Source: an uncultured Candidatus Saccharibacteria bacterium
Lineage (GTDB): Bacteria > Patescibacteriota > Saccharimonadia > Saccharimonadales > Saccharimonadaceae
Length of the DNA stretch: 64,000 nucleotides
Direction of reading: 5' to 3'
Assembly: GCA_946804195.1 (NCBI GenBank)
Contig: CAMPEU010000001.1
Coordinates: 40,192-104,191, forward strand
The translations under genes and the position numbers were made by a program. Every line of letters starts with the position of its first letter. The first letter of the stretch is position 1. Shown in pieces: positions 16,648 through 20,684 of the stretch. The notes beneath the pieces were generated by a model that made no database searches, had not been told where the DNA came from, and saw only the letters and a list, made by a program, of their open reading frames with translations.

Positions 16648-17088
16648 TTAAGAAACCTTCTGTGGCGCCTTCAGATGCATCTCACGCGCCTTGTTTGCCC
16701 ATTCGTCGGCCATTTCATTACCTTCGTCACCCTCGTGCCCACGAACCCAGTTGAGTACTGCATTCGAGCGGCCATATAACGGGTACACGGACTGTACGAT
16801 GTCGAGGTTTTTTATCTCGCCACCTTTCTTTTTCCAGCCTTTTGCCTCCCAGCCAACCGCCCACTTGGTGATCACATTGATCCAAAATTCACTGTCTGTA
16901 TAAATTTCACACGCCTCACCATCTGCATCTTCAAGCGCCGCTTTGATCGCCAAGCCTTCCATGCGAATATTAGTCGTTTCAGGTACATCTTCTCCACCGA
17001 CAATATATGGCTTATTATCACGAATTACCGAAAAACCACCCGGACCAGGATTTGGACTTGCGCTACCGTCTGTATAGTAAACAATCAT
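16648..17088 (-). CDS. rnhA: Ribonuclease HI
   Basis: YTDGSASPNPGPGGF, RMEGLAIKAAL, IYTDSEF, RGHEGDEGNEMADEWAN: catalytic acidic residues present; overlaps the next gene by 4 nt. Confidence 0.88.
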   Translation of the reverse strand: MIVYYTDGSASPNPGPGGFSVIRDNKPYIVGGEDVPETTNIRMEGLAIKAALEDADGEACEIYTDSEFWINVITKWAVGWEAKGWKKKGGEIKNLDIVQSVYPLYGRSNAVLNWVRGHEGDEGNEMADEWANKAREMHLKAPQKVS

Positions 17089-18557
17089 TCTTTGATTATA
17101 TCATTCACTTTGATGTACTCGGTTTCAATTGCGCCATCAAACGGATCCAATACAGTTATTCTATTATGCTTGTTGTCTAAATCCTCATAGGTATACCAAG
17201 ACTTCCAGTATGCTGAATGACTTAAAATCTCCCTACCGCGCCTATACGCTCGTGTTGTTTTAGGAGGATTAACTATTCTGTCTTCCACACTACCCAGCTG
17301 ATTCATATCATCAGCGAAATATTTACGTCGTATCCTACCCGCAGGGCTATTCGCAATTAATTCATCGGTCGTAGCATCACTTTGCGCTTGTTCCTTTGTA
17401 ATCCACAAAGATGATGTATATCGCAAATCCCGCAGTCTACTCACGGCATCCAATGATTTCTTTTTTCTTTTATCTCTGTCCTCATACAAAAGTCGTCGTT
17501 TCAATATCGCATCGCTTTTCTCTAACTCGTCAGGATTACGCTTCATCACCGCATGCGCAATCTTCCATTCCTGCAATATTTTGTCCTGTTCGGACGTTCT
17601 ACCTGTCGTCTGATCTACCCTATTAATAATCTCTTCTTGAATGTCCTGAGCTTTACTTGCACCTTTCATACCCTCTAGATAATATTTTTCTTTGAACTTC
17701 ATATCGAATGTCGCACGTTGCATTGCCCTTGCCGCTACATCTGGACCATCGCTTTCAAACACCATGCCATCCATACGACCTTCCCGCGCAGCTAACAAAA
17801 CCAACGAAGCAGTGCCCATAAACATTTTTGATGCCCACGGAGACACATGCGGATCACCGCCAACCAAATGCAAGCGCCAATATTTTTCCGCACTCGCATA
17901 AGGCTTATCTCTCAAATTCACGATGGGCTTGCCGATATCCGACGTTGTTCCCGTACCATAATCCTCGTTAATCGGTGTTAGCACTTTTTGGCCCCAACTA
18001 TAAACATACTCACCATACCCATTCATGGACACGGCTCCCCCGCCCAGCATTGGCAGGCTCGTTGCTAGATGCGTCAGCAGTGGTCTTGTCCTTATCTTGA
18101 TATCCGCGGTGTCACGAAGCCATGTTCGATCTTCCCCGATATTCGAGTGATACCCCCACGTCGTGTGATGTGCGCCATCAACACGTTTACACAAAAAGCC
18201 CTCGCGCACATCATGCGTCGAAGCGATATGCTTGCGCAAGCCTTCTATGACTATTCTTTCACCGGCCAACTCGGAGAGCACGACGCTCTCGATCGATACA
18301 TCTTCTGGTGTCGCATATTCAAACCGGCCACAATCGTTATAGTATCGAGCTCCGTTACTCAAGTAATTCTCGTAGCTAGCCGATAGCCAGCTGAGTGTGC
18401 CTACGACACCTTCGGGTAACGCATCAACAAGAAACTGATCAAGATAGTTAGAAATTGACAATGATTCAAAATCAGTGGGATTAGTACTTCTACGTACTGA
18501 AATTGGCCATTCCATTTCAGTACCAAAAATCTGTCGAAATGAATCACGCTCAGTCAC
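17085..18557 (-). CDS. PafA/Dop-family protein (Pup ligase / Pup deamidase-depupylase superfamily)
   Basis: IFGTEMEWPI (cf. GxExE), NGARYYNDCGRFEYATPE (cf. NGARxYxDxxHPEYxTPE), TTSDIGKPIVNLRDKPYASAEKYWRLHLVGGDPHVSPWASKMFMGTASLVL (cf. RPIxNTRDEPHADAExxRRLHVIxGDxNMSE). Confidence 0.85.
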   Translation of the reverse strand: MTERDSFRQIFGTEMEWPISVRRSTNPTDFESLSISNYLDQFLVDALPEGVVGTLSWLSASYENYLSNGARYYNDCGRFEYATPEDVSIESVVLSELAGERIVIEGLRKHIASTHDVREGFLCKRVDGAHHTTWGYHSNIGEDRTWLRDTADIKIRTRPLLTHLATSLPMLGGGAVSMNGYGEYVYSWGQKVLTPINEDYGTGTTSDIGKPIVNLRDKPYASAEKYWRLHLVGGDPHVSPWASKMFMGTASLVLLAAREGRMDGMVFESDGPDVAARAMQRATFDMKFKEKYYLEGMKGASKAQDIQEEIINRVDQTTGRTSEQDKILQEWKIAHAVMKRNPDELEKSDAILKRRLLYEDRDKRKKKSLDAVSRLRDLRYTSSLWITKEQAQSDATTDELIANSPAGRIRRKYFADDMNQLGSVEDRIVNPPKTTRAYRRGREILSHSAYWKSWYTYEDLDNKHNRITVLDPFDGAIETEYIKVNDIIKE

Positions 18558-18572
18558 TCCAATGTACCTCTA

Positions 18573-18713
18573 TTAACATGGACCTATTCTACCCGGCATA
18601 GCCAACAAACTCAAACAATAATCAACCGCCTGTTTTAACTTATCTATATCCACCCCTGTACTAACAGCATAAAACCGAGTATAATCTACGGTTAGTTCAT
18701 ATGAAGATAACAC
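18573..18713 (-). CDS. Candidate micro-ORF (46 aa) just upstream of the PafA/Dop-family gene
   Basis: Read directly: GTG start, MLSSYELTVDYTRFYAVSTGVDIDKLKQAVDYCLSLLAMPGRIGPC*; below ORF-track length cut-off; no clear SD. Confidence 0.25.
   Translation of the reverse strand: MLSSYELTVDYTRFYAVSTGVDIDKLKQAVDYCLSLLAMPGRIGPC
18680..18685 (+). promoter_or_regulatory. -10 element (TATAAT) 15 nt before the CofE-like ATG
   Basis: ccgagTATAATctacggttagttcatATG; implies a near-leaderless transcript, no SD visible. Confidence 0.45.
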
Positions 18714-19459
18714 CAGTCAAAACACAGCGTATCGAACCAAGCGCGCTCTCCCTCACCGAACTTCTCGATCGAGTAGTTACTTCACTGTCAGAAAAATCCA
18801 TTGTCGTCATCACCTCAAAAATTGTTTCACTCTGCGAAGGTTCCGTACTGCCAGTTGATGATATTGATCGCGATGAACTCATTGCGCAGCAATCGGATCT
18901 ATATTTGCCACCTCGATACAGCGTACAGGGTCATCATTTTACAATCAAAAATAATACACTCATCGCCACTGCTGGTATCGACCAGTCAAATGGTGATGGC
19001 CAGTATATTTTGTGGCCGCGTGATTCATGGAAAACAGCACGCGAAATTCGAGATTACCTATGTAAGAAATTTGAGCTAAACGATATTGGCGTACTTATTA
19101 CGGATAGTACTTGCGGCGTTCTGCGTCGTGGCACAACAGGAATTGCGCTCGGATATAGTGGATTCATTGGACTAAAAAATTACATCGGTAAACCCGATTT
19201 ATTCGGACGTCCATTCCATGTCACAAATGCAAATATCGCAGAAGGTCTATCGGCATCCGCAGTTGTTGTCATGGGAGAAGGCGCCGAAAGTACTCCGATT
19301 GCCATTATCACGGAATGTGAATCGCATGTAATCTTCTCTGCAAAAAGCCCAACTGATGATGAAAAATTCGAGTGGAACATTCCGTTTGATGAAGATTTAT
19401 TCTCGCCATTCCTAAGTGCGCTCGAGTGGCAAAAAGGTGGCGCCCATGATAAAGAATGA
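18701..19459 (+). CDS. CofE-like F420-0:gamma-glutamyl ligase family protein
   Basis: IVVITSKIVSLCEGSVLP, DSTCGVLRRGTTGIALGYSGFIGLKNYIGKPDLFGRPFHVTNANIAEGLSASAVVVMGEG. Confidence 0.82.
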   Translation: MKITPVKTQRIEPSALSLTELLDRVVTSLSEKSIVVITSKIVSLCEGSVLPVDDIDRDELIAQQSDLYLPPRYSVQGHHFTIKNNTLIATAGIDQSNGDGQYILWPRDSWKTAREIRDYLCKKFELNDIGVLITDSTCGVLRRGTTGIALGYSGFIGLKNYIGKPDLFGRPFHVTNANIAEGLSASAVVVMGEGAESTPIAIITECESHVIFSAKSPTDDEKFEWNIPFDEDLFSPFLSALEWQKGGAHDKE

Positions 19460-19952
19460 AGTTTTATCACACTACATCAATCCGGATTTTGTCTACCGAT
19501 TTAATCATGGACCCAACGTCATTAAATCGCGCGAGCAGGCATTGCGCGAAGGTCTCAACTGTGAAGCACTCGCGCATCTTGCACTGCGTGACCTAACCAA
19601 TGTTGCATTACCGTCAGACCTCCGTTGCTACGAGATGTATAATGACACCGAATACTTTCGCAAGATTGAAACATCCGAAACACTTCAGGAAGGTGACTTA
19701 TTTTGGTTTGGTCAAAATCGCAATATGAGACCTGTTGATTTTCAGCCTCTATTCAATAAAGGCGAACTAACAAATTGGGATGAATATCCTGTTAAACATA
19801 TGGCGTTATTCACAGGAGAGCACGCACACGATGGTAACCCACTACTGCTGCACGCAACATATGTCACCGGCACAAACAGCGTCTGGTCATTACCAGAGTT
19901 CAACAAATACCCTCAATCAAAAAAGCTCTACGGCGTTACGCGACTCAAATAA
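19446..19952 (+). CDS. Cytoplasmic NlpC/P60-like cysteine hydrolase
   Basis: Order Cys-His-His: GLNCEALAHLAL, EGDLFWFG, VKHMALFTGE, LLLHATYVTG; no signal peptide; start re-chosen at ATG 19446, overlapping the CofE-like stop by 14 nt. Confidence 0.65.
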   Translation: MIKNEVLSHYINPDFVYRFNHGPNVIKSREQALREGLNCEALAHLALRDLTNVALPSDLRCYEMYNDTEYFRKIETSETLQEGDLFWFGQNRNMRPVDFQPLFNKGELTNWDEYPVKHMALFTGEHAHDGNPLLLHATYVTGTNSVWSLPEFNKYPQSKKLYGVTRLK

Positions 19953-20684
19953 TTATTCGAGGTCTCCTTCAGACTCTTTTTGCATACGTCTCAAATATCG
20001 TCGAATCGACTTTGCGTGAGGATTCTGAGTCACGGAATGCAAAGGAGATGCCGCGGTTACTGTATCGGGGAAATCATCAGTGCATGCAGGAACATTATCA
20101 CCCAACAAATACTTTCTGATCATCGCTTCAGCAACACGTCGTACGCCATCAGCAAGCCGACGAGGACCATGATGCTCTGGTAGTAATAAGCTATAGATGC
20201 CCGCACGATTCGCAGCTACCACATCGGTCAATATACTGTCACCCACCATCAAAACTCGCTCTGTCGGTAAGCGTTTTTTCTTGATAACAAAATCGATCAT
20301 AGCAGGCAGTGATTGAACCTCTGGACGCACTAAGGCAGACTCTACTTCCAAAATATCAGGACAGATCACGTCAATATCTAACGCTTCGTCCCGCACGACT
20401 CCCTCAAGTTCATCCTGCCGCCTATCACCTTCTTCATTCAATAGATATAAATCCAGACCTATCAGTGACATCCGGCGCATATTGTCGCAAACCTTATCAT
20501 GATCAATTTCACTACATCCAGGAACGAGTGCTGTCCTGGAATCAAATAGCACCGTATCAAAATCTTCTAGCGCCAAACCCTCTCGAAAAACAGCCGGAGT
20601 TATCAACTCCACGCTACTAGCAATGTATGTTGGCTGCCAGTTTTCAAGACACTGTTTCACAACCTCATTATGCTCCCGTACCAA
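19953..20684 (-). CDS. YqeG-like HAD-family protein with degenerate motif I
   Basis: VLMVGDSILTDVVAANRAGIYSLLL is canonical; motif I is FDSRTALVPG instead of DxDxT. Confidence 0.65.
   Translation of the reverse strand: MVREHNEVVKQCLENWQPTYIASSVELITPAVFREGLALEDFDTVLFDSRTALVPGCSEIDHDKVCDNMRRMSLIGLDLYLLNEEGDRRQDELEGVVRDEALDIDVICPDILEVESALVRPEVQSLPAMIDFVIKKKRLPTERVLMVGDSILTDVVAANRAGIYSLLLPEHHGPRRLADGVRRVAEAMIRKYLLGDNVPACTDDFPDTVTAASPLHSVTQNPHAKSIRRYLRRMQKESEGDLE

Follow-up and report, generated by a model that had tools for sequence, protein, structure and literature searches.

A variable Saccharimonadia site bearing a PafA-type enzyme and an overlapping pair of FolC2-like ligase and putative hydrolase genes

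Three neighbouring genes lie between positions 17085 and 19952 of a 64,000-nt stretch of DNA (the whole stretch is called the window below) from an uncultured Candidatus Saccharibacteria bacterium, contig CAMPEU010000001.1. They encode a homologue of the pupylation enzymes PafA and Dop, a gamma-glutamate ligase, and an NlpC/P60-like protein named P0003, which overlaps the ligase. A sequence-only reading had taken the three for one gamma-glutamyl/isopeptide writer-eraser system. We found that the trio is a juxtaposition of two independent modules and not one unit.

Gene content and variability of the site

The PafA/Dop homologue (17085..18557, minus strand) has 490 residues and a GTG start, and its assignment to the family is firm (PF03136, E=1.9e-39; 136 bits for a cut-off of 25). 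It overlaps by 4 nt the RNase HI gene downstream (16648..17088, minus strand; 146 aa; PF00075, E=4.3e-30), a feature absent from the sequence-only reading. On its other side, a divergent intergenic region of 143 bp (18558..18700) leads to the ligase gene (18701..19459, plus strand; 252 aa), whose product has the COG1478/F420_ligase fold (PF01996, E=5e-32) and is of the TIGR04132 (FolC2-like) type. The last 14 nt of the ligase frame (19446-19459) are shared with P0003 (19446..19952, plus strand; 168 aa, ATG start), a putative cytoplasmic thiol hydrolase with weak NlpC/P60 similarity, and a HAD-family phosphatase-like gene follows (19953..20684, minus strand; PF13242, E=1.6e-9). The three open reading frames, the 14-nt overlap and the 143-bp gap are exactly where they had been placed from the letters alone, and codon usage in the ligase, P0003 and the PafA homologue is coding-like solely in the called frame. 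A promoter scan gave scores no better than those of shuffled sequence.

The order in the window is HAD-P0003-ligase-PafA-RNaseHI, without Pup. The same chromosomal slot contains HAD-Pup-PafA-RNaseHI in one relative (G009) and HAD-ligase-RNaseHI, without PafA, in another (G004); in a third (G006), the ligase adjoins RNase HI, again without PafA. The syntenic HAD gene has Pup as its neighbour in G009 and G008, and the ligase in G004. The window RNase HI is 80 to 88% identical to its orthologues in G009, G004, G006 and G003, the value for G009 being 80%. HAD and RNase HI are the two anchors of a variable site in one Saccharimonadia genus. That Pup might be concealed in the 143-bp gap was ruled out by three-frame translation, which gave no Pup-like frame on the minus strand, where G009 carries Pup.

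Among 101 genomes of relatives, PF03136 is present in 20 and TIGR04132 in 10, and the two kinds of gene lie side by side only in the window, so that the proposal of a common system for PafA and the ligase is not supported. The trio is not a unit, because no other genome searched has PafA, ligase and P0003 adjacent, an outcome that the sequence-only reading had itself named as telling against it.

PafA-type enzymes and Pup in the class

The window enzyme scores 95 bits with the PafA equivalog model (TIGR03686, cut-off 551) and the same with the Dop model. Metal-binding and catalytic positions were taken from the Dop listing in PMC8599861, and the positions that discriminate PafA from Dop from Hecht et al. 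(PMC7947786, Table 1). The catalytic and Mg-binding set E, E, Y, D, E, H, R, H is kept, with K at the equivalent of R205. Both the Dop-loop of about 37-40 residues and the DHAHPEYS motif were looked for in the window enzyme, and neither is present. Saccharibacterial PafA-type enzymes are without a Dop-loop, and many have a PafA-type catalytic loop, which reads D-V-G-S-H-x-E-Y-A-T in G185/GWC2_48_9 and D-C-G-R-F-E-Y-A-T in the window. Beside the catalytic Asp, the window loop keeps the equivalents of G66 and A72/T73, is one residue short, and has Pro for Ala74; its alpha-loop fits neither PafA nor Dop. Taken together, the missing Dop-loop, the PafA-type loop found in many of these enzymes and the retained metal and catalytic positions make a PafA-like ligase chemistry our best guess for the window enzyme. 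Maximum-likelihood analysis places it as the sister of the G009 enzyme (99/92), within a clade of six (100/99) whose five other members all have a Pup gene adjoining PafA.

In a sample of 393 genomes of the Saccharimonadia class, PF03136 is present in 42. The gene neighbours of PafA vary between genomes, and in many the adjacent small gene is an unmistakable Pup (from G008, for instance, ...DEIDEVLEENAEEFVRGYIQKGGQ); Saccharibacterial Pups exceed the cut-offs of both Pfam PF05639 and NCBIfam TIGR03687. Pup adjoins PafA in G007, G008, G009, G001, G070, G185/GWC2_48_9, G264, G179 and G406, and the two genes are apart in G057, G066, G067, G081 and G321. The named bearers are Candidatus Saccharimonadia metagenome-assembled genomes and Saccharibacteria GW2011_GWC2_48_9, in which Pup ends 18 nt ahead of the PafA start. 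Pup is over the cut-off in 14 of the 393 genomes, and 13 of the 14 have a PafA homologue where 1.5 would be expected by chance (Fisher p 4.7e-13); each of these 13 has exactly one PF03136 match. In the window's genome (G000), Pup was found neither by PF05639 at E<=1 nor by a profile of Saccharibacterial Pups. The Pup-less PafA genes that were checked showed no other acidic tag gene with a terminal Glu/Gln at their side.

The C-termini of Saccharibacterial Pups (L031, L034, L043, L062, L107, L126-L131) are mostly GGQ or NGQ, although a single PafA-type enzyme is present and Dop is missing; GGE occurs in G057, G009, G081 and G067. Contamination was considered as the source of Pup and is unlikely, the gene being found on large contigs (for example G057:C1, 736 kb, and G066:C20, 386 kb).

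A search with PF00227, which also detects HslV, found no 20S core or HslV in 25 genomes (0/25). Mpa was over its equivalog cut-off in three of the 25 alone (G002, G003 and G005, all of the window's genus), and not in the window's genome. These Mpa/ARC proteins (G002:C22, G003:C8, G005:C26; L080, L081, L082) score 755-803 bits and end in GQYL. The GC content of their contigs is 46-47%, some of the flanking genes are Saccharibacterial-like, and mutual identity is 66-78%; contamination is a lesser possibility. A 172-aa protein of unknown family (L106 2934-3452, minus strand), encoded about 2.4 kb from a PafA gene, also ends in GQYL, like Mpa.

Given the co-occurrence of Pup with PafA and the lack of 20S core and HslV, Saccharibacteria are predicted to have a pupylation system that is proteasome-free and that relies on a single PafA-type enzyme in the absence of Dop. 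Most descriptions of pupylation concern Actinobacteria and Nitrospirae, reports of a Pup-like 'UBact' exist for some candidate phyla, and some tiny-genome bacteria of this kind live on Actinobacteria. A literature search, with subscription papers and preprints outside its range, turned up no paper that links pupylation to Saccharibacteria or Patescibacteria, and Saccharibacterial pupylation is likely to be new for this class. A one-enzyme route is chemically possible, since an engineered Dop-PafA hybrid uses PupQ and ATP directly (PMC7947786). In the Corynebacterium arrangement, pupylation has a non-degradative role (PMC12288473).

The window's genome contains a second PafA/Dop-like copy (L038; G000:C19, 1-1368, plus strand), cut by the contig start, in which the catalytic Asp is replaced by Q and one metal-binding Glu by K. 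In G002 and G003, the relatives of this copy form tandem pairs with these residues intact. In three genomes of the genus, the PafA-like gene or tandem pair has upstream of it a gene for an unclassified protein of about 360 aa with a HEYLH motif (L033 5752-6837; L036 4955-6031; L035 446-1594). Two closely alike PafA genes are found on one actinobacterial replicon in Nonomuraea gerenzanensis (L138, L139). A seemingly phage-borne PafA (MT835496.1, L137, 'Bacteriophage sp.') was set aside: it belongs to a typical actinobacterial Mpa-Dop-Pup-PafA cluster at 74% GC, so that the record was retained as a reference only, and its label is probably misassigned.

The ligase and its overlapping partner

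The ligase had been called CofE-like, of which the fold family stands and CofE proper does not: its best NCBIfam match is TIGR04132, 'putative folate metabolism gamma-glutamate ligase' (E=3.4e-76), with 256 bits versus 115 for the CofE equivalog (cut-off 181). Chlamydia CT611, a ligase of COG1478, complements a folC mutation in E. coli (PMC1971073). FolC is over its cut-off in 1 of 29 genomes, which is not the window's, and FolD is present in 27 of the 27 tested. The ligase lies 1.0 kb from folD in G096 and 0.8 kb from a FolC-like gene in G032. The likeliest role of the ligase would be that of a folate gamma-glutamyl ligase.

For P0003, the NlpC/P60-like assignment is supported by motif only, the sequence match not being significant (Pfam NlpC/P60, E=0.17). 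The protein was suspected to be an orphan when the 101 relatives gave no match, until the class-wide search overturned this, with homologues of 33-48% identity in five other genomes. Residues N38-C39, G83-D84, H118 and H136-A137 are invariant in six homologues from other genomes, and C39, H118 and H136, invariant in 7 homologues, would with the GD motif fit a catalytic Cys-His-polar triad. In a profile comparison, 3npf matches below the threshold (E=0.74), with C39 and the GD motif lined up in register. The invariant residues and this alignment make an NlpC/P60 identity plausible, if unproven. No signal peptide was seen in P0003.

In G317, G320, G169 and G379, the P0003 homologue is directly downstream of the TIGR04132 gene, overlapping it as called, and none of these pairs has an adjacent PafA. 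The ligase and P0003 genes are therefore a real conserved overlapping pair, and the coupling proposed from the window is upheld. For this pair, the best guess is a gamma-glutamyl chemistry, and a gamma-glutamyl hydrolase role for P0003, suggested by motif and position, is a guess. Of the sequence-only reading as a whole, the ligase-hydrolase pair and its probable chemistry survive, and the membership of PafA does not.

Two modules, rival readings and known systems

We consider it likely that the locus is a variable HAD/RNase HI site with two independent modules, a Pup-orphaned PafA-type enzyme and a FolC2-like ligase with its hydrolase. What the data establish is gene content, homology, synteny, co-occurrence and residue conservation; the activity and the substrate of each module, and the direction of change (Pup loss), we infer. 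The enzyme of the first module would descend from a Saccharibacterial Pup-PafA pair; with ATP, it would phosphorylate the C-terminal Glu/Gln of a tag at its side-chain carboxylate (or amide), and the activated residue would then be passed to a lysine. The simplest history would be a loss of Pup in the window's genome. With Pup gone from its usual place and undetectable elsewhere, PafA would be left orphaned, with an unrecognised substrate or as a relic. In the second module, the ligase most likely adds glutamate to folate, in a lineage nearly always without FolC, and P0003, probably a thiol hydrolase of the NlpC/P60 type, may trim the gamma-glutamyl bonds so made. A more ambitious joint version is unlikely to hold in full: a single PafA-type enzyme would activate Gln-ended Pup and ligate it to lysine, proteasome-free, across Saccharibacteria, the window enzyme would have swapped Pup for another substrate, and ligase and P0003 would be a folate gamma-glutamyl writer and eraser.

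Several observations weigh against the two-module account. The window PafA is below the cut-offs of both the PafA and Dop models, and only 28-36% identical to its Pup-linked relatives. AlphaFold models of the window PafA and P0003 (predicted local distance difference test, pLDDT, 38 and 34) are too poor to use, and the NlpC/P60 fold is not confirmed. The ligase is below the TIGR04132 cut-off of 350 bits, and genomes without TIGR04132 are also without FolC, so that FolC-free life does not need TIGR04132. Pup is not over the cut-off in 29 of the 42 PafA-bearing class genomes, and Pup-independent roles are therefore possible; and since the window's genome is in 28 contigs, Pup could sit in a gap.

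The count of 29 genomes, together with the strong divergence of the substrate-side loop, also favours a wider view, in which the substrate of PafA-like enzymes across the class is unrelated to Pup (a small molecule, or another peptide with a C-terminal Glu/Gln) and the use of Pup is a special case. The lack of an alternative tag gene beside Pup-less PafA genes speaks against it, and we regard it as a possibility on the unlikely side. Somewhat more doubtful is the idea that pupylation was lost and that the window PafA is its decaying relic. Pup and Mpa are undetected in its genome, catalytic residues are gone from the second copy (D to Q, E to K), and the window PafA is very divergent, while the RNase HI next to it shares 80% identity with the G009 orthologue. 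Against this stand the full-length frame, the coding-like codon usage, the 4-nt overlap with RNase HI, and the retention of every metal and catalytic position. It is improbable that Pup is present but missed, with a normal PafA-Pup system in operation: the 28 contigs, the second copy beginning at a contig edge and the five genomes with Pup away from PafA would allow it, but two profile searches were empty at E<=1 in a genome that is 99.8% complete, and the usual Pup slot is filled by other genes. As for a single writer-eraser system with a shared protein or metabolite substrate, it is very improbable and already largely refuted, for in spite of the adjacency in the window, the related carboxylate chemistry and the overlap that two of the genes conserve, the ligase is missing from the PafA neighbourhoods of 20 genomes (window excepted), ligase and P0003 are paired without adjacent PafA, G004 and G006 carry the ligase at the very same site without PafA, and the relatives of PafA are tied to Pup.

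We then compared both modules of the preferred reading with known systems. Like PafA of Corynebacterium glutamicum (4B0T/4BJR), the window enzyme belongs to PF03136, has the ExE, Tyr, Asp, Glu, His, Arg, His active site and no Dop-loop, and EYAT and, following the catalytic Asp, the PafA-type loop are found in most of its clade; it differs in being about 25-30% identical, with a loop one residue short, a different alpha-loop, a score under the PafA model cut-off, and a genome without Pup. With Dop of Acidothermus (4B0R), it shares family, catalytic residues and hidden Markov model score (95 vs 95 bits), but neither the Dop-loop nor DHAHPEYS.

The Corynebacterium pathway (ARC/Mpa, Pup, PafA, Dop; PMC12288473) resembles the Saccharibacterial one in joining Pup to a PafA-type enzyme without 20S core, and Mpa is found in G002, G003 and G005. 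In Saccharibacteria, however, nearly every Pup genome has one PafA/Dop enzyme, none of the Dop-loop type, and most lack Mpa. Such a set of Pup and a single PafA-type enzyme, with no proteasome and usually no Mpa, would uncouple tagging from degradation. Single-copy PafA/Dop homologues of Planctomycetes (PMC7947786) are likewise about equally related to PafA and Dop, but partly align with the Dop-loop, which the Saccharibacterial ones do not. The Saccharibacterial system offers a natural test of whether one enzyme covers the jobs of both PafA and Dop.

As to the second module, CofE, the F420-0:glutamate ligase, shares fold family and conserved core region with our ligase, which scores far lower with it than with TIGR04132, and under its cut-off. 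NlpC/P60 gamma-D-glutamyl peptidases (3npf, deposited as a putative dipeptidyl-peptidase VI) have the Cys, GD, His and His-Ala motifs in the order seen in P0003, which differs by its lack of a significant sequence match and of a visible signal peptide. The closest counterpart of the ligase is CT611 (FolC2, COG1478)/TIGR04132, the best family match, able to replace FolC in E. coli (PMC1971073); the window ligase differs in scoring under the TIGR04132 cut-off and in having an overlapping NlpC/P60-like partner, and the conserved ligase-hydrolase pair suggests a gamma-glutamyl cycle, possibly on folate, in mostly FolC-less organisms.

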